Positions 29,032 through 61,162 of a stretch of DNA of 64,000 nt are shown one piece after another; the stretch's first letter is position 1, and each line of letters starts with the position of its first letter. The notes under the pieces are model-generated. The model was not told the origin of the DNA. It saw only the letters and a program-made list of their open reading frames with translations, and did not search any database. The translations under genes and the position numbers were made by a program. The stretch spans positions 74,282,268-74,346,267 of the forward strand of contig NC_134847.1 in NCBI RefSeq assembly GCF_965363235.1, given 5' to 3'. Source of the DNA: Mytilus galloprovincialis (taxonomy: Eukaryota; Mollusca; Bivalvia; Mytilida; Mytilidae).

Positions 29032-31130
29032 TGTTTTTCGCATATATAATGACGTCGTTGATTACAATCCTCGTCAACCCAAACAGCTTCGTTATCCTCC
29101 CAGCTAAATTTCATACAATTATGGCCGTCCTCGCCTTGAGGCATGCCTGAGCCCCATGCAGTAAAGGACGAGACTGGGAAGCCAGTTTCCATCCATCTCC
29201 ATGTACCCTCAAAGGCAAAATCATCGGAACCCAAATAAAATCCATCTATGTTAAAAGCTATCGGAGAAAAAAGTCTTTTTTTAAAGGATATTAATAAAAT
29301 TATATGTAGCATTTTTTTTATACATTTTGTTGAATATTTGAGATTTATTCATCCCGTTCTATGTTGACAAAATCTTTAAAAGAGGGACGAAAGATACCAG
29401 AGGGGATGGTCAAATAATCCGATTCTTCTAAAAAAAAAACCACCAATACACCAACATTATATCAAACAAAGCAATCAGAACTGAAAGATTTTAAGTATAA
29501 TAAGCTAAGGTTTATCTACACATGGATAGAATAACCTGTTACAATAAGATGAGTATAATGTTTTCAAATTGGAAATAATTTGAACAAAAGACAAATTTAA
29601 GCTAAATAATGGAATTATGAATGCCGTATCTAATTCCTTAAATTTAAGCAATTCCCTCCATCTGTTATTTTCAATTGGTATTTTTTTTTTCGGTATTCTA
29701 TAAATGAATTGTTGAGATTTTTTAGCATCGATAGATTTTGTTCTCTCTAACCGATACGGTAGGTACAGAGTGAATGCGTAAACGGATTTCCCCTTTCTAT
29801 CTGTATTTGTATAAATGTAGTTTCATCTATTTCTTGTTTGTTATACTTTTGCTTTCTACAAAAAATATAGTAATAAAAATACCGAACTCTGAAGAAAATT
29901 CTGAAAGCATATTATAAGCAACATAATGACAAAATCAAACTCTCAAACACAGCAAACGAATTGATAACAACTGTCGTATTCCTGACTGTGTAGAAAATCG
30001 TGGATTAAACCTGGTTTAATAGCTTGCAAAACCTCTCAAGTGTATCACAGTAGCATAAAATTCAATTATATAACCAACAATGTGCTAAGAAAACAAACGG
30101 CTTGAACACAATGAACTCCCACGCAAAACAATATGGTATTAGGTTGACATAAAGGTTGGTTTTAATTGAATGTTTTTACAGATGATTTTTTCAGTCTTAC
30201 TTTTAAGGGCACTCATCACTTGTCGCATGAAGTTATGTTTGTCAGGATTGTCATCTGATGCTAAGTATGCTCCTCTGCTTCTGCAATCTCTCTATTAGAA
30301 ATAAATTACAATAATAAATACTGTCGCAAAATACATTGTGATCAAATATGAGTCTAGTGCCATATGAAATTGACAGACATCAACGTGAATTTGGTTTATT
30401 GAAATGTTTATTTCAAAAACTAAACATGCTTAAGGAACATCTGTGTATAAATCGAAATTGTTGCTTTCAGAATAAAACATTGAAAACTTGATTAATGTTT
30501 GAGAATCAGTTATAATGTCTGGGAAAAAAATTTCCGCTTCAATGTAAAAGCAAACAAATACTTAAGCATTAAAAGATACGTGAATGGTGATACCAGCATG
30601 GGTATCAAGTGATATGATATGTTGACAGATGTGTAAGTTGTTTGCATTTTGCTTATATTAAAAAGTCAAACATTTATTATTGATATTTGTATCATTACCT
30701 GAGCATCAATCCAGCTTCTGCCATCTTTAGCGAAGAACAAACATTCACCTTTAAACTCTGCCCAATCTAAAGGACACAGATTTTTTGGTTGTACTACACC
30801 TAAAGCTAATGAAATAAAGAATAATGATTAATTATACAAAAATTCAAAGATAACCGATACATGTATGTAAACAATTGTTTAGACAATGTTATTCGTTTGT
30901 GATAATGGCTACCCTTAAAATGGATCTTGCTTATGATGTTGCATGTTAAATCGAAGAGTATTACAATCTCTGGACGATTAAAAATTAAGCTTCTAACCCT
31001 TTGGATGCATACTGTATATTTAACCCATTGAGTGTATATATAATGTAAGTGTACAATAAAAATAAAAAATATAGTCTTTTCTGTAATACTAACCAACCAC
31101 CAATAGTGTAAATAAAGTAATTCCATACAT
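29032..31130 (-). CDS. CTL-1: secreted C-type lectin, minus strand, MPQ motif
   Basis: Exons on the minus strand are 31130-31094 (signal peptide, MYGITLFTLLVV), 30805-30699, 30291-30201 and 29257-29032, with phases 1, 0, 1 and 2 and GT/AG borders. The mature part is one long-form CTLD: NLCPLDWAEFKGEC, a helix with RDCRSRGAYLASDDNPDKH, the WIGL-like GFYLGSDD, TWRWMETG, and HNC...DEDC...YICEK cysteines. The calcium/sugar tripeptide is MPQ and the WND position reads WVD, so binding by the classical EPN or QPD rule is not predicted. The penultimate loop is 7 residues shorter than in CTL-2 to -4 and not His-rich. A donor (CA|GTAAGT) after YICEK predicts a short last exon, which I could not find. 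Family role: innate recognition or mucosal particle binding. It is divergently arranged with CTL-2, 1.5 kb apart. Confidence 0.85.
29366..29420 (+). repeat. Dispersed repeat, family E, front fragment (in CTL-1 intron)
   Basis: AGAGGGACGAAAGATACCAG matches the front of 55870-56075. Confidence 0.5.
29868..30110 (+). repeat. Dispersed repeat, family A (in CTL-1 intron 3)
   Basis: Diverged copy with AAATACCGAACTCTGAAG, TCGTATTCCTGACTG and AAACCTGGTTTAATAGC. Confidence 0.6.
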
Positions 31131-31172
31131 AGTCTGCGGCTTATCAAATTACTCTTAAATGAATTTTGAACT

Positions 31173-31178
31173 TTATCT
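31173..31178 (-). promoter_or_regulatory. AGATAA (GATA-type) box upstream of CTL-1
   Basis: TTATCT on the plus strand, AGATAA on the gene strand, leaving 42 bp to the start codon at 31130. The same hexamer at nearly the same spacing precedes CTL-2, -3 and -4. Confidence 0.45.
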
Positions 31179-32570
31179 GTACTTCGCTATACTTGTCTAA
31201 CGTGTCCGACTTTCTAATCTTTAGAAGTTTGCTTTGTTGTTTTATCATTATTCAATAGATTTGACATATATTACGATTGATTAATAGTAATATCTGAAAT
31301 GCTACATATGAACACTTTATATATCAATGAAAAAGAGAGGACCTTCGATGTTAAATGCGGCCTAGTCTTCAATACACTCATGTCAGTTTGACTCTGTTGG
31401 ATAGTTGCCTCACCACTAGTCATAACACCTCTCTTTCTTTTCAAACTAAAATCAATATTCACAAATTTCAATGTAAATTGTGAAAATATCGTTTAAACAC
31501 GTTATGAAATGCGTTTGGATGAGATTTAATATGTTACGTCCATACCGAGAATGGCCATCAAAACAAGTAGTCGAAGATACCGAGAATGGCCATCAAAACA
31601 AGTAGTCGAAGGAACACAAGACAATAACATGGCCACAAAAAACGATTTACAATAGTCCAAAAAAAGACACTGTTAAATAAAGATAATGAAACACGACAGT
31701 AACACAAGAAAGTTATAAAATTCGAAATATTTGAACAATGTCATGTAGTAGCCCATTGAAAATCTGACAATCTTTCAAATTCATATATTAGTTAATGACA
31801 CCCCAACCCTTCTAGACTACAAAACCAAACTCAAAATAATTTTGTCTCGATCTTTTGGTATCTATCTGTGTTGTTTCATTAACATATACCCTTCGTCTAT
31901 AGTGCAATGTAAATTGACAAATGTTTATACAACATGTATACAAGCTCTTTAACCTGCCCAGTGAAACAATTTGCAAATAAAGAGGACAGACCGTTTTTCT
32001 TTTTCTTTGTTAGTAGACTTCATTTAATATTCAACAGTCTTAGTCATTTTTCTGATAAACGATGTGTTACAGCTGCATATGCGAAACAGTTCATGATATT
32101 TTGTCACACATTTCAACAAATGATTTATTACAACGAGAAAGTATGGACACTCAGAAAATAAGAACGACCCGCAAAATGTTTATCCCGATAGAAGTATAGT
32201 GTATCCATTTTTACAGCTGTTTTAAGACACGTGTCTATATCGATTGTCAAGCGCATACGAATCTTTTTATCAAATTCTAAGATTGAAAAAACGACTTAGT
32301 TTTCATCAGTGATGTAACAAATAATAAGGTGTTCTTTTCAGAGATTTTCTAAGAATAAGTTTCTTACATGCGATAGAATTCAAAATAGAAACATGCAGGT
32401 GCAAACATCGAAATAAAGGAAAAAAAGTCTAAATGGATTCTTGAAAAGGTTATTTGGCACTTGAATTGTTATGTGAAGACGCCATTTTAAGAGTACTAAA
32501 GTAAGTGTACGAGATTTCAAAATAGGTCAATCCTCAATCATACAATTGAAACATGCTCAGTGAATACAAA
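31179..32570. other. Divergent intergenic region between CTL-1 and CTL-2
   Basis: No gene supported. A 34-bp tandem duplication (containing ATACCGAGAATGGCCATCAA) lies at 31542-31609. This 1.4-kb stretch would hold regulatory sequence for both flanking lectin genes. Confidence 0.45.
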
Positions 32571-32573
32571 TAT

Positions 32574-32579
32574 AGATAA
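32574..32579 (+). promoter_or_regulatory. AGATAA box upstream of CTL-2
   Basis: It lies 42 bp before the ATG at 32622, within TATAGATAAA, so it could also act as a TATA-like element. Confidence 0.45.
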
Positions 32580-32621
32580 AGAGAGCTGTCAGATCTTGAC
32601 ACTTTTATCAAAGACGAAATC

Positions 32622-35600
32622 ATGGTGGCGTTGGCTTTGTTCACATTTATCATAGGTAATTAGAATAGAATAAGCTAAACATGTGAAAAGTTACAGATTT
32701 AGAAGTCTTTACTGTGTTCAACTTTTATAATATTTCGTAAAGGTAAATATTTTGGATCGCAAAGAAACTGCATATTATTTATGCCTTAAAGCATCTGTGT
32801 ATAGATGATTAATGTACTCATCGGCATTTGTGAAGAGTAGCAACACATACGTGCATCTTGTAAACCTAACAAAATATTAATGTAATTAGATAACACAGCA
32901 ATAAAACCGTACAAAACCCAAAAAAGAAATCTAAAACAATTCAACATTTGTTTTTAAACAATTGACGGATGTCTTTACCATATGTCAGTCTCCAAATCGC
33001 TATAACAAGTTGTGAACTATTTTAACAGACGATATCAATAATATACCCTCAACAAAATATCATATACAGGACAATACGATTTAACTAAAGACACACACTG
33101 AAAAGGTGTCCTACCTTGTTCAGACACATTATTACATGGCGTTATTGAACAAGGTTATTTAGTTCTCAACAAAAGTAAATATATGTAACAATTATTGTTA
33201 TACTAATTACTGCTTGATTCTTTAATACGGGCAATGCAAATGACAATAAAACCCAACAGAATACAATTGAGAATAGAAAAATAGTACACAATATATTTTA
33301 TAGATTAGTTAGACAAAATATGGTATAGAGATACATTCATGTTCATTCTCTTTGTATATCCAGGCCTAGGAGCTGTTATACCAGATTGCGATAAGGGATG
33401 GGCATTATTTCAAGGAGAATGTTTATACTTTAGTAGAACCGCCAAAGTTTGGCTGGATGCAGAGGTAAATATTTATAGACTTTCATTAAATGCTCTTTTT
33501 TTGTTATGGTTTATGCAGAGTTCGAATACTTTCGTTAGGGTTTATGCAGAGTTCGAATACTTTCGTTATGGTTTAGGCAGAGTACGAATACTTTCGTTAT
33601 GGTTTATGCAGAGTACGAATACTTTCGTTATGGTTTATGCAGAGTACGAATACTTTCGTTAAGGTTTATACAGAGTTCGAATACTTTCGTTATGGTTTAT
33701 GCAGAGTACGAATACTTTCGTTATGGTTTATGCAGAGTACGAATACTTTCGTTAAGGTTTATACAGAGTTCGAATACTTTCGTTATGGTTTATGCAGAGT
33801 ACGAATACTTTCGTTATGGTTTATGCAGAGTACGAATACTTTCGTTATGGTTTAAGCAGAGTACGAATACTTTCGTTATGGTTTATGCAGAGTACGAATA
33901 CTTTCGTTATGGTTTATGCAGAGTACGAATACTTTCGTTATGGTTTATGCAGAGTACGAATACTTTCGATATGGTTTATGAAGAGTACGAATACTTTCGT
34001 TATGGTTTATGCAAAGTACAAATACTTTCGTTATGGTTTATGCAGATTTCGAATACTTTCGTTATGGTTTTTGCAGAGTACGAATACTTTCGTTATGATT
34101 TATGCAGAGTACGAATACTTTCGTTATGGTTTATGCAGAGTTCGAATACTTTCGTTAGGGTTTATGCAGAGTTCGAATACTTTCGTTATGGTTTAGGCAG
34201 AGTTCGAATACCTCGTTATGGTTTAGGCAGAGTTCGAATACTTTCGTTATGGTTTATGCAGAGTACGAATACTTTCGTTATGGTTAATGCAGAGTTCGAA
34301 TACTTTCGTTATGGTTTATGCAGAGTACGAATACTTTCGTTAAGGTTTATGCAGTGTACGAATACTTTCGTTATGGTTTATGCAGAGTTCGAATACTTTC
34401 GTTAGGGTTTATGCAGAGTTCGAATACTTTCGTTATGGTTTAGGCAGAGTTTGAATACTTTCGTTATGGTTTATGCAGAGTACGACTACTTTCGTTATGG
34501 TTTATGCAGAGTTCGAATACTTTCGTTATGGTTTAAGCAGAGTTCGAATACTTTCGTTAGAGTTTTTGCAGAGTACGAATACTTTCGTTAGGGTTTATGC
34601 CGTGTATGAATACTTTCGTTATGGTTTATGCAGTGTACGAATACTTTCGTTATGATTTATGCAGTGTACGAATACTATCGTTAAGGTTTATGCAGAGTAC
34701 GACTACTTTCGTTATGGTTTAGGCAGAGTACGAATACTTTCGTTATAATTTATGCAGTGTACACATACTTTCGTTATGGTTAATGCAGAGTTCGAATACT
34801 TTCGTTATGGTTTATGCAGAGTACGAATACTTTCGTTATAGTTTAAGCACAGGTCGAATACTTTCGTTATGGTTTATACAGAGTTCGAATACTTTCGTTA
34901 TGGTTTATGCAGAGTACGAAAACTTTCGTTATGGTTTATGCAGTGTACGAATACTTTCGTTATGGTTTATGCTGTGTACGAATACTTTCGATATGGTTTA
35001 TGCAGAATACGAATACTTTCGTTATGGTTCATGCAGTGTACGAATACATTCGTTATGGTTTATGCAGTGTACGAATACTTTCGTTATGGTTTATGCAGAG
35101 TACGAATACTTTCGTTAACGTTTATACAGAGTACGAAAACTTGCGATATGGTTTATGCTGTGTACGAATACTTTCGATATGGTTTATGCAGAATACGAAT
35201 ACTTTCGTTATGGTTCATGCAGTGTACGAATACTTTCGTTATGGTATATGCAGTGTACGAATACTTTCGTTATGGTTTGTGCAGTGTACGAATACTTTCG
35301 TTATGGTTTATGCAGTGTATGAATACTTTCGTTATGGTTTATGCAGTGTACGAATACTTTCGATATGGTTTATGCAGAGTACAAATACTGGTTATTACTA
35401 TAGTTAAGAAATGAAGTTTAAGTAATGTTGAACTGTAGTTTAAGACTAAAAAAGTCACGCCTAACATAAAAATAATTATGGGTAATATTCGTACCGGATT
35501 TGCAGCGAATAATACACATGATCGCACTTGTAGACTTACAGCTAAACGTACTTAAATATTTTTGCAACGCTTTACATAATAAGACAGTTTCTACATTTGA

Positions 35601-37436
35601 AAATGCCTGTACCAAGTCGTCAGGCATATGACAGTTATTGTGCATTTGTTTAGTTTCATATGTTTTGGCATTTGATTTTGCCATTTGATTAGGGACTTTC
35701 CGTTTTGAATTTTCCCCGGAGTTCAGTATTTTTGTGATTTAATTTTTGGTTTAACTCTTTTATAGGTTTTCCTTATAAAAACCTTTAAGTTTGAGATCTC
35801 GATTACAGGAAAACAAAATGATCTATAAATTCATACGACCAATAACCATTCTACGTCTAAACATGTTTGGAAAAAGGTAACCCAAAACTGACTTCATACT
35901 CTTTCTATGACAATTTAAGAAACATTTGAACACAAAACGTTTATTTTTGCTCATGGTATCTTGTTAATAGTTTCTTTCTTTCAACAGGCAGATTGCAGAA
36001 GACATCAAGCTTATTTGGCCACAGATGACAATCAGGCAAAACACAATTTCATTGCCGATTTTCTTAATGTTTTCACAAGTAAGTTTAGCAACAAAACTTA
36101 GAAAAAAAAACAAACAAGCAAACAATTATGAGGCCCATCATGGGGATGTTCAAGTATTGATATAAACTCAAATATTTTGCCAATATAATCACATGATCAT
36201 TAATTAGTTTTTTAAACAAGATAATCGATTAATATTAGTACAATTTTCGGATTATCAAATAATCATTTTAAAAATAATCAAGTAATCATACAATCAAAAA
36301 CCCTATGAGGAGACTCAGTTATGCATTGTTTTCCTGTGTGTTACATGCTTCCGAACAAATAGTACTAAATATAATTATGAAGGGAAATATTTGTATGTTT
36401 CAAATTGTCCATAGTACAATAACTTTAAGATTCAGAAATGGAATTGCATACTGTATATTTGCATATACTATTTATAGTTTTACCATGTTTTAGGCCGTCA
36501 AAATTTTATTTGTTCTGCCTATTGCATTCTATAAAATTCATATACTTGGAAAGATCTAATCTGCATTTCAAATGTTGACAGATCAATAGAATAAGTGAAG
36601 AGAGATAGATAGTTGATTGAGTCAGTGTATATGCAATCAGATCAAATTCAGTATCTTATAATTTAAATTTGTATTGAAAACAGGAGAAAAAAATTAGTTA
36701 AATAAGGAGGCCTTATACTGTTTTTAATACAATTTTTTTAAATCATACATTTTTTCTGTAAATCTTAACAGGTTGGGGTTTGAACCATTTCTGGCTGGGA
36801 GCAAGTGACTATACATTTGAAAATCGTTGGCAGTGGCTAGAAACAGGAGGTGTAATCAGTGGCTTTTCGGCTTGGCTTCCTGGGTATCCAAATGGAAATC
36901 TGTCGCAGAATTGTATGATGACTGTATTTAATGGTTCACAATTATATTGGGATGACCAGAGATGTGACTCCCACCATGGCCATAAGACTGCAGGGTTACA
37001 TTACATTTGTGAAAAACCGTAAGTACGAAGAGGAACTTTTTTTTTTTTTTTTATCTTTTTCTGAATACGCAACTGATACAAACTTCGAAGAGAAAGTTTT
37101 AATTAGTGAAAAGATATGTTAAGAAAGACAATTAATTTAAGTTTTGCTTCTTTATTTGATTTCATAGTACAGAAACATCCTGCTCAACTACGTTTACAAT
37201 GAAAAAAGGAAATCAATGAAAATCGTTCATGATTCATAATCTGATTATAACTTTATCGAAATACATTTGTAAAATGTAGGAATATATTATCAAAAAGAAT
37301 AGAAAAAATGTCTGAGGTAGTTTAAACCTATCGTTAATTAACTACATGTATTCCCCGTATTTCAGAACATGAGATTAATTTACCTTTATTCTTTTACAGG
37401 GATCCTGATTACAACGCCGGAAGCATAATTGGTTAA
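32622..37436 (+). CDS. CTL-2: secreted C-type lectin, YPN motif
   Basis: Five exons: 32622-32655, 33364-33464, 35988-36078, 36772-37018 and 37400-37436, phases 1, 0, 1, 2. They give 169 residues. Residues 1-16 (MVALALFTFIIGLGAV) are a signal peptide. The CTLD has C20 and C31 (long-form pair), C48, C123, C140 and C155, HFWLGASD at 81-88, WQWLETG at 95-101, the binding tripeptide YPN at 114-116 and WDD at 135-137. The canonical tripeptides are EPN (mannose) and QPD (galactose), so YPN keeps the proline and Asn but not the Glu ligand. A His-rich loop (SHHGHKTAGLH, 142-152) precedes the last cysteine. The C-terminus ends SIIG, as in CTL-3. AATAAA is at 37467-37472. Intron 2 carries a 1.9-kb minisatellite. 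Sugar specificity is not predictable. Confidence 0.9.
33504..35390 (+). repeat. 31-bp minisatellite, about 61 copies, in CTL-2 intron 2
   Basis: A 31-bp unit beginning TTATGGTTTATGCAGAG and ending AATACTTTCG is repeated head to tail for 1,887 bp with scattered substitutions. Because 31 is not a multiple of three, each strand frame cycles through the same 31-residue peptide (VYAEYEYFRYGLCRVRILSL and so on) and stays open over long stretches. The frames above 100 codons here are repeat artefacts. It lies wholly between exons 2 and 3 of CTL-2. Confidence 0.95.
35585..35745 (-). repeat. Dispersed repeat, family A (inverted)
   Basis: Reverse-strand words GGGACTTTCCGTTTTGAA and GGAGTTCAGTATTTTTGTG match family A. 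It sits in CTL-2 intron 2 after the minisatellite. Confidence 0.6.
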
Positions 37437-45338: not shown

Positions 45339-48300
45339 ATGGTGCTCTATGTTGCTTTTCTATTTATTTGTAAGTAAAATATTTTACTATTTCTCATGGA
45401 AAGACATGCCTTGCAAGGCATTGATTGTGTTTGTTGATTACTGCTTAACTTCTGGTGGCAAATAGGTCATGCATATAAAGGACGAGTTTGTCAAAAGAAA
45501 ACCCCAAAATTAAAATGAAAATGAAAAATAATTTCAAAAGCCTGTTCTGTAATTGGATTTAATATATACGAGTTAAACATAAACCTAAATTCATCTCCGA
45601 CATTAGATAGTCTTTTTCAAATCCCTTTTTATTTTTTCTTCAGAATTGCAGAACTTCGTGAGGTCTTCAAAGATGAAAACCATTACATCACGTGAAGCAA
45701 GATCTGTAACATTATAGGTCACTACCGTTTCAGGCGGGATTCATACTGATTGGTCTTAAAATTTGTTTGATTAATCATGTTTGAAGATTGAATACAATAT
45801 TAAGATGCAACAATTTTTTTTTTTAATTTATCATGTTTTATTGAAATCTGTACATTTGTTAGTTCGCAAACATCAAGTTCCTGAGCCTTATCCCGGCCTT
45901 GGTAACATTAGTAAATAATATGTGTATACAGCTGTTAGTTTTTGTTAGTATTATACATACAATATTCCATACTGAAATAAATTATATTCCATGTCAGTAA
46001 TATCAAAGAGAAGCTGACTATTAAGATTTTCAAACATATATATTCTAGTATAACAAATGCACAGGTTTTGAAAATATATATCATTTGTGTTGTTTTAGTA
46101 TCAACATATAAAGATATATAAGATATATGTTTTAGTAAGTCTGTAGATTATTTTTTACTTTAAATATAAATGATAGAAAAAAAAACAACATAAAAAAAAA
46201 CAAAAACAAGATGCAACATTATTGGTATATGCATTACTTTTCTGTAGAACCATTTTATAAAAGTTTAAACATAATATATATATATAAATATATATATACA
46301 ACTCGTCTAAACATCAACCCAACAATGTTAGATCTGTAAATTTGCTTTCGCAAATTTTTGGTTCTTCCCTCGCCGGGATTCGAACCCATGCTACTGTGAT
46401 ATCGTGACACCAAATCGCCTGCACTGCAGCCGTCCCGCTAGACCACACGACCAACTGGGCTCTCTAAATAAAAGAGCTTTCGCTGGCCGTGTGTTACCTT
46501 TCCTCGTCAGTTTTAATCTAGCGGCGTACTACAGTACATGATATATAAGGCATGAAGATGTTTTTGTTACAGATCAGCTAAATTATCTATAGTAAAGGAT
46601 CCTACAAAATTAATGTAATTATTTTCTGTGACTGTATATTACATTAATTTTGTAGGATCCTTTACTATAGATAATTTAGCTGATCTGTAACAAAAACATC
46701 TTCATGCCTTATATATCATGTACTGTAGTACGCCGCTAGATTAAAACTGACGAGGAAAGGTAACACACGGCCAGCGAAAGCTCTTTTATTTAGAGAGCCC
46801 AGTTGGTCGTGTGGTCTAGCGGGACGGCTGCAGTGCAGGCGATTTGGTGTCACGATATCACAGTAGCATGGGTTCGAATCCCGGCGAGGGAAGAACCAAA
46901 AATTTGCGAAAGCAAATTTACAGATCTAACATTGTTGGGTTGATGTTTAGACGAGTTGTATATATATATATATATATATATATGTTCCAGACCATATGAG
47001 TATTTGGACCGTACGCGTACGGTCCGGACCGTATACGTATACTCGTACGGTCCGACCATACGCGTACGGTCGGACCGTATGAGTATACGCGTATGGTCCA
47101 GTACGAGCTAACCAGCTGACTATATATGTATTAGATTATATGGGTTAAATTTATACAAATTAACGTTAATCACAATCTTTATTTTTAGGTTTACTAATTA
47201 ATATTATTACAATTACACGGATAAAATGAACAAATGAACAATTGAAATTAAATATTTGTTTAATTGTATATATCTTGATCCTTATTTTGGTACTCTCAAC
47301 CAATGTTACACTTGCTACCACAAGTAACGTACTAATATTTTTTACATTTACATTTTTGCAGTTCGTGTATGTTCCTTAGCATTTCCATTTTTCGTAAAGT
47401 TGCTAAATATTCTCAAACAATTGTCCTCCCACATTATATTTACTTCCAATATTTTCAATTTTAGTGTTCATAATTCAATTATTTTACTGAGTGATCGACA
47501 TGCTAAATACAAGAGATTAACAGATTCAATTAGCGTGAATTTTTTAAATCTATAAAATATTAAAGTGTTTTTTTTTCAATTACAATTAAACTTTTTTATA
47601 TCAATTTGAGAATTAAGCTATATTGATCTGATATATGCATCTAATTAACTTTGCCAACTTCTTAATATAAGTCAGACCGTACGCGTACGGTCCGACCGTA
47701 TGAGTATTTTGAAAAAGTACGCATACGGTCCAGACCGTACGCGTACGGTCCAAATACTCATACGGTCTGGAACATATATATATTTGTTTAGGGACCAGCT
47801 GAAGGACGCCTCCGGGTGCGGGAATTTCTCGCTACATTGAAGACCTGTTGGTGACCTTCTTCTGTTGTTTTTTTCTATGGTCGGGTTGTTGTCTCTTTGG
47901 CACATTCCCAAGGTGGTCGTGTGGTCTAGCGGGACGGCTGCAGTGCAGGCGATTTGGTGTCACGATATCACAGTAGCATGGGTTCGAATCCCGGCGAGGG
48001 AAGAACCAAAAATTTGCGAAAGCAAATTTACAGATCTAACATTGTTGGGTTGATGTTTAGACGAGTTATATATATATCATGTGTGCACACGTTGAGGGGA
48101 CATTTACTATTGTCTGACACTAGTTTTATCCATCATTTTCTATTGAATGTAAATAAAAGGAGACAATGATGTTGTTAGGTGACTTAAACACAGATCCTAA
48201 ATAGAGAAAGACTTTAAAATTAATCTAATATCGAACACCGGCCTAACAAATGTAAAATAGGTGAAATTGATACACCCAGAAAACAAACAAACGAAAGTAT

Positions 48301-51294
48301 TTATTTTATATATTTGTCTTCTTTAAACCACGATAGGTACCATTCATATAACGAGTATACTTGATAAGCTTTATTTCTAATTTTAGGCATCTCATTGACC
48401 AGCGCTACATGTCCAAGAGGATGGGCAGAATTTGATGGAGAATGCCTTTATTTCAGCAAAACTCCAAAAACATGGGTAGATGCCGAGGTAATGATTTCAA
48501 ATATAAAAATATGAATAATGAGAAACAAAAAATACACAAACAAGCAAACACAGTTTCAAACCACTTCAAACCTATTTTACAATTACCTAATTAATAAGTC
48601 CAAATATTTCAAGACCAAGATGTATGTTTCTAGTAATTACTGAAAATCGGCATTGTCAATCAAATCTTTTGTAGCTTTTGAACATATGTAAGTTTACACT
48701 AAAAAATCGCTTCGAATTCTTGTTCCGTGTTTTGGCTATGAAAGTGTAATCATTATCCCATTTCTTAACTTTTTTTTATATACATGCATTTTTAATCTAA
48801 CCAATTTGATTTAAAAATGTTGCAAATGAATTGTATTTTTGTGAAAAATGAAAACAGCAACATAAAACCAAACACAAACAATGTTTTACAGAAAAATTTA
48901 ATGTGGTATACACTTCCTCCGATGGACAACATTTGTAAATTTTTCGTCCTTCAATTGTATGTCATTGAGGGGAAAAAATTATCCGAACATTATATAAAAG
49001 TCGAAATATTAAAAATTTGAAACTAGTTATAATGTGTTACATTGCTCGTTTGCAATAATTTTCTATCAAAATCGTACTGATAGACAAACAACCGTCATTG
49101 TGTTTATCCCGATTGCTTATCGGTTAGCATTCTTAATATGTGTTTATACCAATATGTGTAGGTAAAACGAGTCAGAGATTATGTATAGCAATACAATTTG
49201 CTAATTTCATTGCACCAGATACATATTTCGACATGTAATGTCTCTTCCTACAGTAACGATCGAAGCCAAACTCTTTTGATGGCTCGACCCAATACAAAGA
49301 TTACAGACCTGATAAAACCAAATGTAAAACAAAACACTAAGAATGTATCGAAGCTATGCATGAGGTCGATACGTTCGTAATTTAATTTATTTTGAAATTT
49401 TAACAGCAAATTGAAAAAAAGAACACATCCATATATTCATGCCAGTAATGAAATAGTTTATATCATTAATCAATCAGCTCCTTATTCAATACTCCGAAGT
49501 CTCCGATGAAACATTTTAATTAACGAAGTAACTACATGCATGTATAACGGTGCATTTTATGTTGTTTATTATATTGGTAGGCTTCCTGTAGGAACATGCA
49601 TTCTTACCTAGCAACAGATGACAATCCAAAAAAGCATGAATTCATTAAAGAAATTTTGAATGTCTTAATCGGTAGGTACATGTATGTTGAATGATTGTTT
49701 TCCAAGCATTAACAACAGAAAATAAATGTGTTTTTATATAGATTAGACCGTTGGTTTGCCCGTTTGAATGGTTTTACACTAGCTATGCTTATGGGACCAT
49801 CTATAACTTGCTGTTCGTATTGATGAACGTACCTTTACCTATAATGGTTTATTTTTATAAATTGTGAATTGAATTGAGAGTTGTCTCATTGGCACTCATA
49901 CCACATCTTCCCATATCTATAAACATTAACAACAGCAATTACAAAAATCCAATATTTCAAGTCGATACAACGACATCAATTGAAGTCATAAGATGTGTAC
50001 AAGATACTACAATTTACAATCATTACTAAGCTAAACTAAGATCTTTTCCAACTTTTAGTCTGGGGAGCACCACATTTCTGGTTAGGTGGCACTGATTACG
50101 TCATTGAAGGACAATGGCGTTGGGTCGAGACAGGTGTATCGATGACCGGATTTTCAATTTGGGGAGTTGGCTACCCACAAGGTGGATTGGGCCAAAGTTG
50201 TTTGAGTACATATTTTAATGGGACAGAATTATTCTGGCAAGACCTAAGCTGTGGACACAACGTTGGGCACAGACATCATGGATATAACTATATATGTGAA
50301 AAGTCGTATGTATATTTATATATCAATGACGTTACGCGCGATGTTCGTACCGTTTACGTTTTTTTGTATGTTTTGTGGGTAAAACTGCGCTGCAGGTGCA
50401 GAAAAAACGTATTTTAAGTAAAACAAAGATATTATTGTACTGGATATAAATGTCCTTGTTCAATTATGTCCATTAAAACAATATAAAACGCATTTGTTCA
50501 TGTTGTTATGCATTTTATTCCGGATTTTGGGAAAATAATGGGCTGTCCCGGGTAACATTTGACGACGAAAACTGAAGTATAAGCCTTCTTTTCAACTTTT
50601 TTTCGCCGATTTTCATTATTTTTTGTTGTTGCCGCGAATTGCCATGAAATGAAAACCCACTATGATATATTTTTTTGACGGCTAATGGCGTCTTATCCTG
50701 TTACGCCATGCAAATCTGCAAAGTTTCATTGTGTCCCATCTCCATTTTCGAAACTACTTTGACGAAAACAGTTAAAAACTACGGATAAATGATGTCATCA
50801 GGTGAGAAAATGATATAGCTAGTATAATGTTTACATCCTTTATAGTAAAAATATATATAAAAAAATACTATTGCAATAATTTTGAACTGCGCATTTGATG
50901 CACCAATTTAAATCCGTATCGCTCGGTCGATGCCACCGATGGTGACTGTACTTAAAAAAGTCCCGATAGTTGAATTAACCTTCGTCAAGTAATCGACACG
51001 GTACGGTCGAGGTAAAAAATAACCTGACAAAATCGGAATATGCAGTCAATAGGTTTATATTGGTGGAAAAATTATTGCATTTGATGATAGCATCGATTTA
51101 AAGTAAAGGTAACCGATAGTATTTATTAGGATTCAAGCTGTTACAATTTAGCATAATTATGACTACTTTTTACCTCAACAACTATAAGATACCACGATTT
51201 TACCGAGAAAACACAGTTCCATAAACGTACAATAGTATAATTTGTTTTTTTTGTGTATTTCAGGGCGGAGCCTTCTGCATCCATTATTGGATAA
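45339..51294 (+). CDS. CTL-3: secreted C-type lectin, YPQ motif
   Basis: Five exons: 45339-45369, 48387-48487, 49581-49671, 50059-50305 and 51264-51294, phases 1, 0, 1, 2, total 166 residues. Residues 1-17 (MVLYVAFLFICISLTSA) form a signal peptide. The CTLD shows TCPRGWAEFDGEC, ASCRNMHSYLATDDNPKKHE, HFWLGGTD, QWRWVETG, the tripeptide YPQ in GVGYPQGGLGQSC, WQD in place of WND, and the last cysteines LSC...YICEK. A His-rich loop (GHNVGHRHHGYN) sits between the last two cysteines. The C-terminus is AEPSASIIG, matching the SIIG end of CTL-2. AATAAA lies at 51314-51319. Intron 1 (3.0 kb) hosts the SINE palindrome, the CG-palindrome TIR element and a further SINE. The nearest paralogue by ending and loop is CTL-2. 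Confidence 0.9.
46289..46968. repeat. Perfect palindrome, 331-bp arms, built from a SINE composite
   Basis: The left arm 46289-46619 and right arm 46638-46968 are reverse complements with no mismatch that I could find; the 18-bp centre is TATTTTCTGTGACTGTAT. Each arm carries the tRNA-like head (B box GGGTTCGAATCC) and its 3' module. Both arms share a private variant (CCAACTGGGC rather than CCACCTGGGC), so one arm was copied from the other. It lies in intron 1 of CTL-3 and is bounded by (TA)n. Confidence 0.9.
46983..47774. mobile_element. 792-bp TIR element with CG-rich palindromic ends
   Basis: Ends are TGTTCCAGACC(A/G)TATGAG at the left and its reverse at the right, both set in TATATA. Each roughly 100-bp end is packed with copies of the 20-bp palindrome GGACCGTACGCGTACGGTCC or close variants (three exact or near-exact, several diverged). 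The interior (47110-47670) is AT-rich and non-coding. TA flanks fit a TA-targeting DNA transposon; the superfamily is not assigned. Confidence 0.7.
47785..47909 (+). repeat. Dispersed repeat, family B, cut by a SINE
   Basis: Carries GGACGCCTCCGGGTGCGGGA and TTGTTGTCTCTTTGGCACAT. It stops at 47909 where the SINE begins, so the SINE inserted into it. Confidence 0.6.
47911..48068 (+). mobile_element. tRNA-headed SINE, clean unit copy
   Basis: This is the best-bounded copy, about 158 bp. It starts GGTGGTCGTGTGGTCTAGCG (A box) and has a B box GGGTTCGAATCC near 47981-47992. After a variable part (AAATTTGCGAAAGCAAATTT, a short hairpin) it ends GATGTTTAGACGAG before (TA)n. A and B boxes imply RNA polymerase III transcription. 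Other copies are at 9496, 17590 and in both arms of the 46.3-kb palindrome. Confidence 0.75.
49740..49925 (+). repeat. Dispersed repeat, family D (CTL-3 intron 3)
   Basis: Has CGTTTGAATGGTTTTACACT, CCTATAATGGTTTATTTTTA and GTTGTCTCATTGGCACTCAT in order. Confidence 0.65.
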
Positions 51295-52725: not shown

Positions 52726-53358
52726 CAACATTTCCGTCTTCCTTCAATATGAAAACTTACCAACACCTTTTGATGACTATGTTGAATACATCTGTATACT
52801 ATGCAACTTGAAACAAAGTATACCACACTTATATTTAAGGCTGCATCGTATCATGACTAATATCAAGAAATTGACATTCATAAATTCCTAAATGGGTCTG
52901 TTAAAACACAACTGTACGACAAAAGGGCTCCATTTATAAACTTGCCATTTGTATGTATCAGCATTATAGCAGCACCGCAATATTAAGAATATCTCCCAAC
53001 CAATTGATACCGAAACAATATTTCAAAGTTTGAATATTCTGTCACAATGTTATTGACTAAATGATGCTGCTTTCATGGAAGCTATTGAACTAAGAGTTCA
53101 AAGTGGTAAAGTTGGTGATTCTTCGAAAGTGTTTTGGACGCCATCACAAGTTGTTTGATAGTTTTGAAATACGGGTATATGTGTCACAGATGACTACGTT
53201 TTATGTTGTGATAACACAAGTGTTAAAGTCTTCCAAAGGGTTTAGCGCACACTAATTCCTTCATATTATATATGTTCCTGTCCTATGTTAGGAACCTACA
53301 CGTTAGTGGTTATTGTTTGTTTGATAAAACAGGGTGTTGTTTTTTTAAGTTTGCATTG
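52726..53358. other. Non-coding stretch before the 36-bp minisatellite
   Basis: No supported gene or recognised repeat. Confidence 0.4.
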
Positions 53359-54629
53359 TTTCACATTGTGTCGTGTTGGCACTATTTGTGTTTGTTTCAC
53401 ATTGTGTCGTGTTGGCACTATTTGTGTTTGTTTCACATTGTGTCGTGTTGGCACTATTTGTGTTTGTTTCACATTGTGTCGTGTTGGCACTAGTTATGTT
53501 TTTTTCACATTGTGTCGTGTTGGCACTATTTGTGTTTGTTTCACATTGTGTCGTGTTGGCACTATTTGTGTTTGTTTCACATTGTGTCGTGTTGGCACTA
53601 ATTATGTTTGTTTCACATTGTGTCGTGTTGGCACTATTTGTGTTTGTTTCACATTGTGTCGTGTTGGCACTATTTGTGTTTGTTTCACATTGTGTCGTGT
53701 TGGCACTAGTTATGTTTTTTTCACATTGTGTCGTGTTGGCACTATTTGTGTTTGTTTCACATTGTGTCGTGTTGGCACTATTTGTGTTTGTTTCACATTG
53801 TGTCGTGTTGGCACTAGTTATGTTTGTTTCACATTGTGTCGTGTTGGCACTATTTGTGTTTGTTTCACATTGTGTCGTGTTGGCACTATTTGTGTTTGTT
53901 TCACATTGTGTCGTGTTGGCACTATTTGTGTTTGTTTCACATTGTGTCGTGTTGGCACTATTTGTGTTTGTTTCACATTGTGTCGTGTTGGCACTATTTG
54001 TGTTTGTTTCACATTGTGTCGTGTTGGCACTATTTGTGTTTGTTTCACATTGTGTCGTGTTGGCACTATTTGTGTTTGTTTCACATTGTGTCGTGTTGGC
54101 ACTAGTTATGTTTGTTTCACATTGTGTCGTGTTGGCACTATTTGTGTTTGTTTCACATTGTGTCGTGTTGGGACTATTTGTGTTTGTTTCACATTGTGTC
54201 GTGTTGGCACTATTTGTGTTTGTTTCACATTGTGTCGTGTTGGCACTATTTGTGTTTGTTTCACATTGTGTCGTGCTGGCACTAGTTATGTTTGTTTCAC
54301 ATTGTGTCGTGTTGGCACTATTTGTGTTTGTTTCACATTGTGTCGTGTTGGGACTATTTGTGTTTGTTTCACATTGTGTCGTGCTGGCACTAGTTATGTT
54401 TGTTTCACATTGTGTCGTGTTGGCACTATTTGTGTTTGTTTCACATTGTGTCGTGTTGGCACTAGTTATGTTTGTTTCACATTGTGTCGTGTTGGGACTA
54501 TTTGTGTTTGTTTCACATTGTGTCGTGTTGGCACTATTTGTGTTTGTTTCACATTGTGTCGTGTTGGCACTATTTGTGTTTGTTTCACATTGTGTCGTGT
54601 TGGCACTATTTGTGTTTGTTTCACATTGA
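53359..54629 (+). repeat. 36-bp minisatellite, about 35 copies, with higher-order pattern
   Basis: A 36-bp unit starting TTTCACATTGTGTCGTGTTG is repeated head to tail. Because 36 is divisible by three, all forward frames and one reverse frame stay open, giving a 455-codon frame (FTLCRVGTICVC per unit) that is not a credible protein. Two unit types alternate: A (ACTATTTGTGTTTG) and B (ACTAGTTATGTTTG, with one ACTAATTATG). The order begins AAAB AAB AAB AAB, then seven A, then B and mixed runs. Three units with GGGACTA and two with GTGCTGG suggest later block duplications. Confidence 0.95.
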
Positions 54630-54849: not shown

Positions 54850-55100
54850 TTGTGATTTTATTATTTTATATATATGTTGTGTACATTTTATATCTACATG
54901 TACTATGCAAAAATTAACAAACAAATAAATAAATAAGAAAATAGTACAAGAAAAACAAATACCTGACAATCGACAAAAAAATCCTTGACTTACAAAACCA
55001 AAGAAAGGAGTTTTTTTAATAAAACATTTAAAGCAAAAGAAGAAACAAACATAACTCAAAGATAATGTGTTGTACAAGTTGTTATCCTTTTCTCAACAAA
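54850..55100. other. Non-coding AT-rich stretch
   Basis: No gene seen. It separates the hammerhead motif from the palindrome cluster. Confidence 0.4.
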
Positions 55101-55101
55101 A

Positions 55102-55230
55102 TTGTACAAGTAATTACTGGTACAATTATATTTTTACAAGTAATAACTTGTATGATGGCCTCATACAAGTAATTACTTGTATAAAAAGTTTGTACAAGTA
55201 ATAACCTGTACAAAATATTAACATGTACAA
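55102..55230. repeat. Cluster of TACAAGTAATTACTTGTA-type palindromes
   Basis: Four near-copies of one palindrome lie within 130 bp: 55102-55126, 55134-55153, 55163-55182 (exact 20-bp palindrome ATACAAGTAATTACTTGTAT) and 55190-55214. Half-sites (TTGTACAAG, ATGTACAAG) lie at 55069 and 55223. Spacing is about 28-32 bp. Confidence 0.75.
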
Positions 55231-55865
55231 GACATATACAAGAGACTCATCATCGAACTGTTTTACATACCATGAGCAACCTAACGAGCGCCACTAGTGG
55301 GAAAGATAAAAACTATGTTTACCCTTTGGTAGCACCCGAGTCTTGTAAACAATTTATTTGTAAATAAGACCTTACCAATGCAAATTCATGACAATACAGA
55401 AGCAATATTATAACATAAACATGTGTATTCAATATTATAAAGTTAAAGACATACGTTTGTGTTTGTTTAAAGTTAAAGACATACGTTTGTGTTTGTTTCA
55501 TAAAAACAAGGAATGACCAAGGCAGATATAAATATTTTTTATCAACACCCACTATGATTCAAACAAAAAGTAATATGTAACTATCATATTAAGGATACTT
55601 GGTGTTTAAATTTAACTGATATTTTTATTACGTTAGAAGGATGTATTTTATAAAAACAATTTCTTGCCATACTTTTTTGACATAGTGTTGCTGTTTATTA
55701 TTTAGCTATTGAAGTAAAAGTTTTGTGTAGAACAAAACATAGCCATCCCTTCGAAAGTGTAATGTACTCCGTCGCAAGTTTATTGGCTGTTATGGAGTGT
55801 CTGTGTCACAAGTGAACCGCCTTCGATCTTCGACTTATCAACCTGTTCATGTTATGCTATGAAGC
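55231..55865. other. Non-coding stretch with a small tandem duplication
   Basis: A 28-bp unit (AAAGTTAAAGACATACGTTT...) is present twice at about 55439-55495. Otherwise nothing seen. Confidence 0.45.
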
Positions 55866-55869
55866 AGAC

Positions 55870-56075
55870 TTTATAAAAGAGGGACGAAAGATGCCAGAGA
55901 GGTAGTCAAACTCATATATTGAAAATAAACTGACAACGCCATGACTAAAAATAAAAGGACAAACGGACAAATAATAGTACATAAGACACAACATAGAAGA
56001 CTAAGCAACACGAACCCCACCAAAAACTGGGGGTGATCTCAGGTGCTCCGGAAGGGTAAGCAGGTTCTTCTGAAA
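55870..56075 (+). repeat. Dispersed repeat, family E (front part)
   Basis: Contains AGAGGGACGAAAGATGCCAG, ACTGACAACGCCATGACTAA and GATCTCAGGTGCTCCGGAAG, which is continuous with the 24510-24900 part in the family as I recall it. Confidence 0.6.
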
Positions 56076-56980
56076 ATAAATAAAATGAAGCTTGTATCAT
56101 CCTTAAATTTAACCGTCTATCATCTAGGTGTCATCTCACTTAGAATTTAAAGTTTTGTGACTGTTGATTGAAATAACGTGTGCCTCATATTTACACTTAT
56201 CATAGATGGAAAACAGTTTTCTTTTCAACGAATGCAACATTATTGAATTCGACTTATCACCGAATGATGGGTGTGTCTAGCAAAGATTAGATTTGTTTTG
56301 GCAAATCTTTTAGTGTCTGTGTATTGCTTAAAGGACTATCGTTTCTTGTTTCTTTTAATTTTGATACTTGTGTTTTCTGTCTTTTTTTATCTATGCATTT
56401 GTTTATCCCGTTTTCACTTTTAACATATAGAAATTGGCAATGAAGGTCGCGGTAGAAACCTTAATTTTATGAAAAATTATTGATTTTAGTTTTTCAAATT
56501 ATGAAATGTTCATTTGTCTGCTGCAACATCTGAACAGCACCTGTCCATAAAATACATGTGCGAATCGTATGATGACTTCCTTGATAAGGTATCGCACCAA
56601 GGGTTCCTAATGTGGAAGTAGCTAGATATACAATTAAGAGTTATGTAACTTGGAAAAAAAAATAATCTGTAGTCAAGGTATCATTTTCTAAGTGGTACAT
56701 GTACGAAATAAAACTATTTTCATAAATGCGTACTACATGTATTAATAATCCGTTCATTCGGGTTAATATAGTATATATATTCTCTATCTTTTTCTGAAAT
56801 TTTATAGTACATTCAGTGTATATGTATAAATATACGTTTCACGTGAAGAACGAGTGACAAAAGTTTAATTTTGGAACACTAAAACTAAGTATGTCACATA
56901 TTAATATGTGAATTTATAGATCCTTCGACGGACCAACGAAATTGGTATCTTGAGGTTACTAGATGCATGTAATACTATAT
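56076..56980. other. Upstream region of CTL-4, no gene seen
   Basis: AT-rich, no supported exon. Confidence 0.4.
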
Positions 56981-56982
56981 GA

Positions 56983-56988
56983 AGATAA
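56983..56988 (+). promoter_or_regulatory. AGATAA box upstream of CTL-4
   Basis: It lies 46 bp before the candidate ATG at 57035. Same hexamer and nearly the same spacing as in the other three lectin genes. Confidence 0.45.
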
Positions 56989-57034
56989 GATTATAGATCA
57001 AATGTACTAGCTGTTATTTTCACAAGTGTCAAAA

Positions 57035-60000
57035 TGGCGTCCATGCTACAAGTCCTAACCCTGTTGTCAGGTACGATGTTTCTCACAAACGATTATATGT
57101 TTTATTTTGTATAGTTATAGTATTTTTTAACAGAAAACTAATTGTGAAAAGTTGTACAACCCCTTTAAGTGACATTTCTGATACATTGGTTTTATTGCAC
57201 TTTAAAGGTCTGATATTTTTGCATGCATACTCATTTTTTTGAGCTTCGGAAAACAACTAATTCTTTAGAAAACTCCTTTCGTATCCTGGAAATAAAAACA
57301 CAAAGTAAACAAACATATAACTTTTTCACGTTACGACTTGGATGGAGAGTTGTCTCATTTGCACTCATACCACATCTTCTTATATTTATATATTAATAAC
57401 AATTTCCTTTTTTTTAGAAGACTATAAACATATTTTATTTCAGCTTCCATACTACTATCCACTGCCTGTGATCTTGGATGGACCTCATACAAAGGGAAAT
57501 GCATTTATTTCAGTAACAAACAACTATACTGGAACGAAGCAGAGGTATATATCAATTAAAATGTATAATAAATATTGTAAGGTAATTAAACCAAATTTTC
57601 GTAATACGGTTCATGTTGTTTCTAGACATCTATTATTAGAGATTATTGTTTGATTAATGTCAAATAGCAAACTATTTCTAAAGGAAAACGCGCAAACAGT
57701 TCATACAATACTGAATAGATAGATTTTGCAAATTAAAGTAGGTCGATTGGAACGAACTATAGGAAATATCGACTGTCACTGCAAAGGCAAAATGAGGCCA
57801 TTTTGGAAAAGAACAGAAAGTTTGCCTAGCAAAACGTCACCTACAATCACTTTCTGCAGGTGGTCTCAAGTAAACAGAGAGTGAATAAACCTGTTACGTG
57901 AAATTAGATTGAAAGTCCTCATTCTGACGGGATATTAATGTGTATTAAATATAAATCCTGAACGGCTGCTAAAAATTATAAGGGTTTCACTTGAAAATGG
58001 CAGTAGTGCAAAGATGATCATATTTCTCAACCCCATACATTCATCTTGGGTTTATTTTTTTACTTAAACTTCAACTATGCTATTGCGAATTACGTGTGAA
58101 AAATGCCTTATATCATAAAATCAAATAAAAAAAGTGTTTAATAATAATGCACAAAATTTGAAATAAACAAATCGATACATGTATGGGCCCACTTTTTAAT
58201 TTTAAAGCTGCGACTTAAGTTCATGAATACTTTTTTTTTTATCATTAATCTTAATTTTGTGTATTAAGTAAAATTGAGAGGCATGCTGATTTAGCACGTA
58301 CTATGCAATTGGGGTATGCACAAATGTGCTATGCAAATATATAGTTTTCTCTGATATCATTTATAAATATTTACGACGTAAATGTTTTAATATTAATAAT
58401 CGTTCCTGTCATATTATTTCAGGCAGCATGCGAGAAAAAAGGAGCCTATCTGGTAACGATTGACAGTGAAGATAAAATGAACTTCGTATCAAAATATCTC
58501 AACGTTTTTCAAAGTAAGAAAAAAACTGTTATTGATCATTCAGTTTCATTTAACTCCGAGGAAAATTCAAACGGAAAGTCCCTTTTCAAATGCAAAATCA
58601 AAATTTATGATTGCATATATAGTAGCTGAATCTATTTCAATAAATGTGTAATTTTTCCAAAATTGAAATGTGTATAACTTATAAGTTTATCAGTTAACAT
58701 TGACTCATTTTGAGTAAGATAATTGTAATTGACAAAGAAAGTGTTGTTTCTTCAATTTGTTTTAAAGAAACATTTGATCTGTAACATTGCGTGAACAGAT
58801 TTCAATTTGATTTAGTTCAAGTAACCCTAACGGTGTCTCAGTGACGCAAATATAAGAAAAAAGTTATCCGACGACGGAGTGCAGGTACATGCAAATTATA
58901 GCAACTTGCATTTTTGGTCATTAGACATCCTGCTTTTATGAAAATATTGAGGAATTTAATGGAAACGTTTCTCGACGATTTTCTTTTTCTATCATTAATG
59001 TTATTTAAATTTAGAGTAGCTTCCCTTTGCCCATTCTGTTAAAACTGCTATTTTCCTCGATGCATCGATGAAATAAAAAGAAAAGATGTACTATGTACAA
59101 TGAAACACGTAAACATATATTAAACTAGAGAGAGAAAAGTAAAATCACAATAATACTGAACTTAGAGGAAAATCAATTTGGAAAGTCCATAATCACATGG
59201 CAATTTCAAATAACAAAACGCATCAAAAACGAATGGACAAGAACTGTCATATTCCTGACTTGGTACAGGCATTTTCAAATGTAGAAAATGGTGGATTAAA
59301 CCTGGTTTTATAGCGCTAACCCTCTCACTTTGATGACAGTTTCGTCAAATTCCGTTATATTTACATCGATGCGTTAACTAAACAGACACAATAAATAAAT
59401 AGTCAAAATATGGGTACATCAGTCATCATCGTATAACAATTTTAAAAGGGACAATTTAACAAGAGTAATTAGAAGTTTTCGATTTTAATATGATTTTCCG
59501 ATTGAAAAGAGAAAAGAAATATCCTGTGTTTGAAAGTCAACCAAAATTAAGTTAATATCTGTAATCTGGAAAATGATATATTGTTAATTAATTAGTTCCA
59601 GCTGCAATCATTAATTATTTAACTGTCGAAAATAAACACCATGCATTGTGCATGTTGTATAATTACCCAATAGAAAGAAAGAATATGTTCTTTTCTATAA
59701 AATGTAACTTAATTAATTTTTGCAATGAGTAAAGTGTCTAAAAAATAAATATTATATGATAACCAAAAGGAAAAGGCAAAATTGTTCCTTTTATAAAATG
59801 TAGAGTAAATAATATCTCTAATAAGTAATATGGCGAAGAAATACAATCATGCAGTGGTTAAAATATTCTTTAGGTTTCCGTTATACTCACTTTTGGATTG
59901 GGTTGAAAGACGCCCCTATTGAAGGACACTGGCGTTGGATAGAATCTGGTTCTTCGCTAGGATCATACAGTAGTTGGGGACCAGGTCAGCCAGATGGAGA

Positions 60001-61162
60001 TACCTCCCAAAATTGTGTGCAAGCAAGTTTGAACGGGACTCAGGCATTTTGGTATGATGCCAAATGTGAAAACCCACATCATTCAACTCATGGAGGCTAC
60101 TATTACATTTGTGAGAAACCGTGAGTTATTTCATAAGTATACAAAAGTGGTTAACCACATCAGATCCATTTTTTTCTGCTCGTTTAGGAAGATGGCAAGT
60201 ATTTTTAAGGAAGCAGTCAAGTGATGACAAGTTTGTAATCCGTTTTTTTTTTCTCTCAATCAATTTTTGACCCTCGAACAACGGTATACTACTGTTGCCT
60301 TTTTTGATGAATCATCACAATTATTCATTCATTCAATTTGTTGAGTTGTAAACATAGTAGAAACTAGAGGCTCCTAAGATTTTGAATTGCTCATGCGTCA
60401 AAATTATATATCATATTGGTGATCATTTATCCTCCTTACAGCAATACTGTGAAACGAGGTTTTTCACACTCCAGTAGTCACAATGGTAAACATTTATTGA
60501 TGTACTATTGAATTGAACCATACACGCTATTAATTTATTTCCTTAGTTAAATTATACTTCATAGTTATTGATATTGATTTAAGATGGGGGATTCTGAAGT
60601 CCTTGTTAAAGTAAGAGTAAAATGTACATGAATTTAAAGAAACAGAAAGTGGTCATGGGTGTAATACATTGTCTAAAGAATTATCGCCTTTTGTTTGCTT
60701 TTAACAAATCAGAGAGTTTAAGGTCTTTCTGAGGTGTAAGTAAAAGTATGTTTTCATCCTCTGAAGGATTAGATGTAGATATATATGAACAACATTGATG
60801 GAAAATGGGGGCATTGTTAATGACTTTAATAATGATTATGTTGAAAATATAAATAAATGCAGGTGAAAATGTAAATACTATATCTAGAAAAAAGCCTAGT
60901 AAATATAAAACTTTGAATTTATTTTGGCTAGGAATATTTTAACGGACGAATACATCTCTGTAGAACATAGCAGAATTCGGATTTAAAACTTTGAAATGCA
61001 ATTATTGTGCAGACATTCAAACTTAATATAAACAAATAATCGTAGTGGAAGGAAAAGACAACAACAATAACTCGAGACATTTTGCATTTTCTTTTCGTTA
61101 CATTTTGCAAATTAATCTTTTAATTAAATGTGTTTAATACTTTCAGGGATACAAGCAGTTAG
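57035..61162 (+). CDS. CTL-4: secreted C-type lectin, QPD (galactose-type) motif
   Basis: Exons: candidate first exon 57035-57070 (MASMLQVLT...), then 57444-57544, 58423-58513, 59874-60120 and 61147-61162. The middle exons are 101, 91 and 247 bp, exactly as in CTL-2 and CTL-3. Exon 2 encodes SILLSTACDLGWTSYKGKC, so the signal peptide continues into it. The CTLD has HFWIGLKD, HWRWIESG, QPD in GPGQPDGDTSQNC, WYD in place of WND, and YYYICEKP. QPD is the classical galactose-type calcium-site motif, the only canonical one in the cluster. A His-bearing loop (NPHHSTHGGYYY) precedes the last cysteine. The protein ends DTSS, without the SIIG tail. By my count exon 1 ends in phase 0 while exon 2 needs phase 1, so the true first exon or one base there is uncertain. 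AATAAA is at 61283-61288. Confidence 0.85.
57325..57395 (+). repeat. Dispersed repeat, family D, end fragment (CTL-4 intron 1)
   Basis: GACTTGGATGGAGAGTTGTC and CACTCATACCACATCTTC match the end of 49740-49925. Confidence 0.55.
58548..58612 (+). repeat. Dispersed repeat, family A, fragment
   Basis: TAACTCCGAGGAAAATTC and GGAAAGTCCCTTTTC only. Confidence 0.45.
59138..59410 (+). repeat. Dispersed repeat, family A (CTL-4 intron 3)
   Basis: Long copy with GAAAGTCCATAATCACATGG, CATATTCCTGACTTGGTAC, TGTAGAAAATGGTGGATTAA and CCTGGTTTTATAGCGC. Confidence 0.7.
60265..60310 (-). repeat. Dispersed repeat, family C, inverted fragment
   Basis: ACGGTATACTACTGTTGCC is the reverse of the family C core. Confidence 0.45.

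Follow-up and report, generated by a model that had tools for sequence, protein, structure and literature searches.

Four neighbouring C-type lectin genes of Mytilus galloprovincialis (CTL-1 to CTL-4) carry four different tripeptides at the position that is EPN or QPD in canonical lectins, and the question raised by this locus is whether that variety records a change of sugar specificity. In EPN/QPD lectins the choice of sugar is determined by the canonical calcium site 2. An earlier note, made from the DNA alone, read the four genes as diversification of the ligand site around a conserved scaffold. We examined the window (the whole stretch of 64,000 nucleotides, C10:74282268-74346267) together with the rest of the genome, the searches covering 1.385 Gb in 331 contigs.

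Gene models and domain structure

The four genes were rebuilt by six-frame reading, tblastn inside the window and splice checks. All four are intact C-type lectin genes and lie at the positions that the earlier note gave. The exon sizes and phases that it listed also hold after the splice checks: exons 2 and 3 measure 101 and 91 bp in 4/4 genes, exon 4 measures 247 bp except in CTL-1, where it has 226 bp, the phases are 1, 0, 1, 2 throughout, and AG/GT borders are found at all 12 internal exons. The tblastn search within the window showed no further lectin copies beyond these four. The exons are as follows (window positions).

CTL-1 exon 1, 31094..31130, minus strand: signal peptide MYGITLFTLLVV..., donor GTTAGT (predicted, ab initio)
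CTL-1 exon 2, 30699..30799, minus strand: 101 bp
CTL-1 exon 3, 30201..30291, minus strand: 91 bp
CTL-1 exon 4, 29032..29257, minus strand: 226 bp; MPQ, H two before Cys, WVD
CTL-2 exon 1, 32622..32655, plus strand: signal peptide MVALALFTFII (predicted)
CTL-2 exon 2, 33364..33464, plus strand: 101 bp
CTL-2 exon 3, 35988..36078, plus strand: 91 bp
CTL-2 exon 4, 36772..37018, plus strand: 247 bp; YPN, Q two before Cys, WDD
CTL-2 exon 5, 37400..37436, plus strand: tail PDPDYNAGSIIG, then stop (predicted)
CTL-3 exon 1, 45339..45369, plus strand: signal peptide MVLYVAFLFI (predicted)
CTL-3 exon 2, 48387..48487, plus strand: 101 bp
CTL-3 exon 3, 49581..49671, plus strand: 91 bp
CTL-3 exon 4, 50059..50305, plus strand: 247 bp; YPQ, Q two before Cys, WQD
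CTL-3 exon 5, 51264..51294, plus strand: tail SAEPSASIIG, then stop (predicted)
CTL-4 exon 1, 57034..57070, plus strand: signal peptide MASMLQVLTLLS (predicted)
CTL-4 exon 2, 57444..57544, plus strand: 101 bp
CTL-4 exon 3, 58423..58513, plus strand: 91 bp
CTL-4 exon 4, 59874..60120, plus strand: 247 bp; QPD, Q two before Cys, WYD
CTL-4 exon 5, 61147..61162, plus strand: tail PDTSS, then stop (predicted)

The exon 1 candidates of all four genes were chosen by a hydrophobicity score and by eye as signal-peptide-like starts, without a predictor. Exon 5 came from a scan in CTL-2 and CTL-3 and from the DNA read at the end coordinate of the earlier note in CTL-4; in CTL-1 the same scan and a reading of the window DNA gave no convincing candidate. 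CTL-1 appears to use a GTT donor after exon 1, like the donor after exon 3 in two relatives (L014 with L069, GTTCGT; L071 with L012, GTTAGT).

All four proteins match the PF00059 (Lectin_C) profile above its curated cut-off of 22.6 bits (CTL-1 51.3, CTL-2 44.0, CTL-3 42.7 and CTL-4 68.1 bits; E 1e-10 to 1.3e-18) and thus belong to the C-type lectin-like domains. The long form of this domain has six cysteines in the usual places. In the alignment of the four domains 34/145 columns are invariant, among them six cysteines (C8, C19, C36, C111, C128 and C143 in CTL-4 numbering) in 4/4 genes, which makes them long-form domains.

The shared exon plan was compared with 38 other lectin loci of the same genome (defined below). 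A phase-2 donor at the same place as the exon 4 end is found at 30/38 loci (chance about 1/16), and an acceptor of exon 4's phase within 36 nt at 37/38. The acceptor test is loose: every AG of suitable phase in that 36-nt range was accepted, a condition that chance alone would satisfy at about half of loci, so that the donor count carries the argument. Since 30/38 sampled loci share the exon 4 end phase, the plan does not look special to these genes; it looks inherited.

A cluster of at least seven genes

CTL-1 and CTL-2 are divergent (head-to-head), CTL-1 on the minus strand; CTL-2, CTL-3 and CTL-4 share the plus strand. Genome searches found three further minus-strand genes just upstream of the window (C10:74.2376, 74.2512 and 74.2573 Mb), so the cluster (C10:74.238-74.342 Mb) has at least seven genes, four of them inside the window. 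One more close relative is located on the same contig outside the cluster, at C10:6.1706 Mb (C10:6.17 Mb in rounded figures). These genes (CTL-1 to CTL-4, the three upstream genes and the distant one) are referred to as the eight relatives. The description of the locus as four tandem paralogues is therefore right about paralogy and wrong about tandem, since CTL-1 is on the minus strand and the cluster is larger than four.

In own-genome searches with exon 4 of CTL-2 and of CTL-1, the eight relatives were the eight best matches in both, and the next match had E 7.6e-9 (CTL-2 query) or 2.0e-9 (CTL-1 query). With exon 4 of CTL-4 as query, seven relatives lead, the seventh at E 2.8e-10 with the next locus close behind at 3.4e-10, and the eighth (74.2376 Mb) ranks 22nd. 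Over the domain, CTL-1 shares most identity with the other minus-strand genes (50-53%), and CTL-2 with CTL-3 (56%). A search with exons 2 and 3 returned seven matches, of which four lie in the cluster (CTL-2 exons 2 and 3, CTL-3 exon 2 and one upstream gene) and three outside it, a weak basis for judging whether the relatives form a clade. This genome has a very large lectin family: a first look gave 1034 candidates, 150 were scored and 150/150 matched PF00059, which sets the family at 150 members or more.

A tree of exon 4 was built for the eight relatives and the 38 other loci with the ligand columns excluded (65/95 columns kept). CTL-1, the three upstream genes and the distant relative group together (82/81, the branch not starred). 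In the best tree CTL-4 stands apart from CTL-2 and CTL-3 and falls weakly among loci several of which are QPD-type, and CTL-3 is placed, also weakly, beside the very long branch L027. On these 65 columns, p-AU is 0.43 for the eight relatives as one clade and 0.48 for the seven without CTL-4, values compatible with either group being a clade or not.

Several other elements were seen in the window. Positions 1-6253 hold pieces of an LTR-type retroelement, where an integrase zinc-binding match exceeds the cut-off and matches to protease and integrase core fall short of it; three stretches of 284-300 nt, 4586-4759 nt apart, are 100% identical, and this identity suggests recent insertion or assembly duplication. 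Reverse-transcriptase matches (PF00078) are found near the cluster at 13952-15037 and 25531-26499, a 448-aa open stretch at 18916-20262 matches IgGFc_binding (PF17517, E 2.5e-39), and a weak APOBEC3 profile match at 8840-9238 (E 0.0069) is below the cut-off. Intron 2 of CTL-2 contains a 31-bp tandem array (33499-35389, 61 copies, 91% matching). Another array lies between CTL-3 and CTL-4 (53356-54628, 36 bp, about 35 copies); as its period is divisible by three, more than one of its reading frames stays open.

Calcium and sugar-site residues

The earlier note gave the tripeptides and WxD triplets correctly: MPQ/WVD in CTL-1, YPN/WDD in CTL-2, YPQ/WQD in CTL-3 and QPD/WYD in CTL-4. The ligand positions follow the five site-2 positions of mannose-binding protein and were placed by aligning the genes with canonical loci of this genome; the full calcium-dependent EPN/QPD set is then E/Q, N/D, E, N and D. 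By this measure none of the four genes has the calcium-dependent ligand set: the Glu two before Cys and the Asn of WND are gone in 4/4 window genes and in 8/8 relatives. In CTL-1 (M, Q, H, V, D) a single ligand of the five is of the usual type. The view that CTL-4 alone is canonical stands for its galactose-type QPD tripeptide and fails beyond it, as the loop Glu is Gln and the Asn of WND is Tyr (WYD). In a phmmer alignment of one relative's exon 4 with a mosquito lectin of known structure, KPE pairs with EPN and Gln pairs with Glu.

The background of 38 loci was drawn from the exon 4 matches of CTL-2 and CTL-4 (59 loci, L009-L067, less 16 that represent the eight relatives and less five duplicates). 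The first tripeptide residue is E or Q at 36/38 of these loci versus 1/8 relatives, and the third is N or D at 36/38 versus 3/8. The Glu two before Cys is kept at 29/38 versus 0/8 (Q in six, H and K in one each), and the Asn of WND at 25/38 versus 0/8 (T in four, V, D, Q and Y in one each). A complete EPN/E/WND or QPD/E/WND set is found at 22/38 other loci and in 0/8 relatives. Fisher tests on these ligand counts ignore relatedness. The Asp of WxD is present at 38/38 other loci and in 8/8 relatives, and the Pro of the tripeptide and the Trp of WxD are also invariant in 8/8 relatives; something at the site is therefore still constrained.

A second sample of 40 exon 4 matches was picked by hand (20/150 from the PF00059 scan and 20/138 from the search with CTL-1 exon 4) and read by script, with six rows (L076, L084, L111, L099, L107 and L114) read by eye. 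Here the Glu is kept in 32/40, the Asn of WND in 25/40 and [EQ]P[ND] in 29/40. Both Glu and Asn are lost at 7/38 loci in the first sample and 6/40 in the second, as against 8/8 relatives, and the six double losses of the second sample are all among the 20 loci from the CTL-1 match list. As double loss occurs at other loci too, this cluster is not alone in site decay, which is spread through the lectins of this genome and merely complete here.

Variety of motifs and rates of change

Among 125 column pairs with the same spacing, 48% also show four distinct combinations in the four genes, as the outer residues of x-P-x do; the seven distinct pairs in eight relatives are equalled by 24% of column pairs. 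The genes and their homology exceed chance; the variety of the tripeptide is no greater than expected by chance from divergence.

Synonymous sites are saturated in the six pairs of window genes (pS 0.73-0.84), so dN/dS on the four genes alone is uninformative, and the eight relatives were used for codon models instead (F3x4, best of four topologies). The M0 omega of the whole domain is 0.14. M1a fits better than M0 (lnL -3064.4 vs -3097.4) and assigns 48% of codons to its class with omega fixed at 1, a figure to be read with care as dS is saturated. Among the eight relatives there is no class with omega > 1, the M2a likelihood being equal to that of M1a, and no positive selection was detectable. 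The neutral rate across the whole domain that the earlier note had set against its own reading was not seen either; the domain as a whole is under purifying selection.

The codons of the ligand sites have omega 0.25-0.34 versus 0.14 for the rest (p 0.002-0.017), significantly below 1. Random codon sets reach the ligand-codon value in 5-15% of cases for sets without the invariant Asp and in 29% with it, so that the ligand codons do not stand out, and the site loop taken as a stretch (omega 0.146) resembles both exon 3 and the remainder of exon 4. The per-site rate elevation that had been predicted for the sugar site is thus present relative to the domain mean and absent relative to 1. Single-site estimates above 1 were obtained for four codons of exons 2 and 3, two of them at the grid ceiling. 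The site evolves faster than the domain mean, yet this shows relaxation rather than positive selection. Of the proposed diversification on a conserved scaffold, the scaffold is borne out (34/145 invariant columns), and the adaptive part is not, given the missing omega > 1 class.

N-glycosylation sequons in the site loop

The stretch that separates the tripeptide from WxD contains an N-x-S/T sequon in 7/8 relatives (all but CTL-1), a count that does not represent independent events as the eight genes are related. The same loop carries a sequon at 4/38 other loci and in 6/40 of the second sample. Two places are used: just after the tripeptide (the three upstream minus-strand genes, the distant relative and CTL-2) and at the turn before WxD (CTL-2, CTL-3 and CTL-4). 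These sequons are the only mildly surprising part of the cluster. They could mean that the sugar-gripping site was retired and replaced by a glycan on the protein's own loop, the sequons having arisen in both arrays and at two different places, an idea drawn from sequence that we regard as a long shot. If true, the former lectins may present a sugar, or shield with one, where their relatives bind one.

Discussion

We consider it probable that in this cluster of at least seven genes, part of a large bivalve family, the secreted C-type lectin-like scaffold was kept and calcium site 2 decayed. The copies would share an exon plan by inheritance. The canonical site would have decayed by replacement of two of the five ligands in every member, and the outer tripeptide positions would have drifted roughly as fast as other variable positions do, with the fold held by purifying selection. 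Binding of calcium and sugar at site 2 would be lost or weak, and the proteins, if they are lectins at all, may work via a calcium-independent or altered surface. Some observations speak against such decay. The omega of the site codons is about twice the domain mean, the Asp of WxD, Pro and Trp have been retained in every relative, and loss of both ligands also occurs outside the group at the frequencies given above. The clade test (p-AU 0.43) agrees with one clade or with several, CTL-4 stands apart in the best tree, and the decay may reflect one loss or more than one.

If site 2 had instead been rebuilt and still binds calcium and sugar, CTL-4 would be galactose-type and the others respecified via Tyr, Met or Gln. 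Gln or Asp is able to ligate calcium, and the invariant Asp of WxD fits such a site. Table 4 of PMC12842671, in the part available, lists calcium-dependent bivalve lectins with QPD/WLD, QPN/WDD and QPN/WVD; such calcium dependence despite unusual motifs is likewise a point against decay. With a single usual ligand type left in CTL-1 and with Tyr for Asn and Gln for Glu in CTL-4, we regard a rebuilt site as unlikely. A little less likely still is that positive selection diversified the sugar site and that each duplicate recognises a different glycan. The seven x-P-x combinations in eight relatives and the faster site codons agree with it; it would have to be reconciled with the absence of an omega > 1 class, with a variety matched by 24-48% of ordinary column pairs, and with the loss in 8/8 of two calcium ligands that calcium-dependent sugar choice needs. 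Degraded site residues and the missing exon 5 of CTL-1 could also be taken as signs of decaying pseudogenes, which is highly improbable in view of the intact frames and splice sites of exons 1-4, the six invariant cysteines and the omega of 0.14. Decay of the calcium site on a maintained fold is the reading that we retain.

A varied EPN/QPD tripeptide alone is no evidence for new sugar specificities, and this cluster exemplifies the point: reading such variety requires a check of the remaining calcium site and of the background rate of change. The eight relatives form a compact set for the study of site loss and of a possible gain of a loop glycan.

Comparison with known lectins

An expanded lectin repertoire in bivalves is described in the available part of PMC10140915, in whose main text a term search for EPN, WND and positive selection gave no match. 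The accessible part of PMC12842671 presents motif variability on a constant fold as typical of bivalves and tabulates YPD/WID, YPT/FQN, QPN/WDD, QPN/WVD, RPD and KPD; in its Table 4, CvML and CgCLec-1 have YPD/WID, TgCTL-1 has QPN/WDD and VpClec-4 has QPN/WVD. The exact pairs MPQ/WVD, YPN/WDD, YPQ/WQD and QPD/WYD were not found in that part of Table 4, nor were the motifs of this cluster found named in the portions of the bivalve lectin literature that were searched. Like CTL-1 to CTL-4, the tabulated proteins have the lectin domain, varied outer residues of x-P-x and a WxD without Asn; CTL-1 to CTL-4 differ in being neighbours in one cluster.

SPL-1 and SPL-2 of Saxidomus purpuratus are calcium-independent, with K/R-P-D replacing EPN and with Tyr66, Asp106, Asn118 and His120 as contact residues, according to the same available part of PMC12842671. 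Their structures (PDB 6A7S and 6A7T) are among the PDB matches of the KPE relative and of CTL-2. They differ from the cluster in that Table 4 of that source, as far as available, gives them WND, a point on which its text is inconsistent. The canonical EPN/QPD lectins of the same genome share with the cluster the fold and the phase-2 end of exon 4 (30/38), and differ from it in the full EPN/E/WND or QPD/E/WND set (22/38 versus 0/8). Bivalve lectins with varied motifs are already known as a kind, and the cluster is an ordinary part of a known large family.
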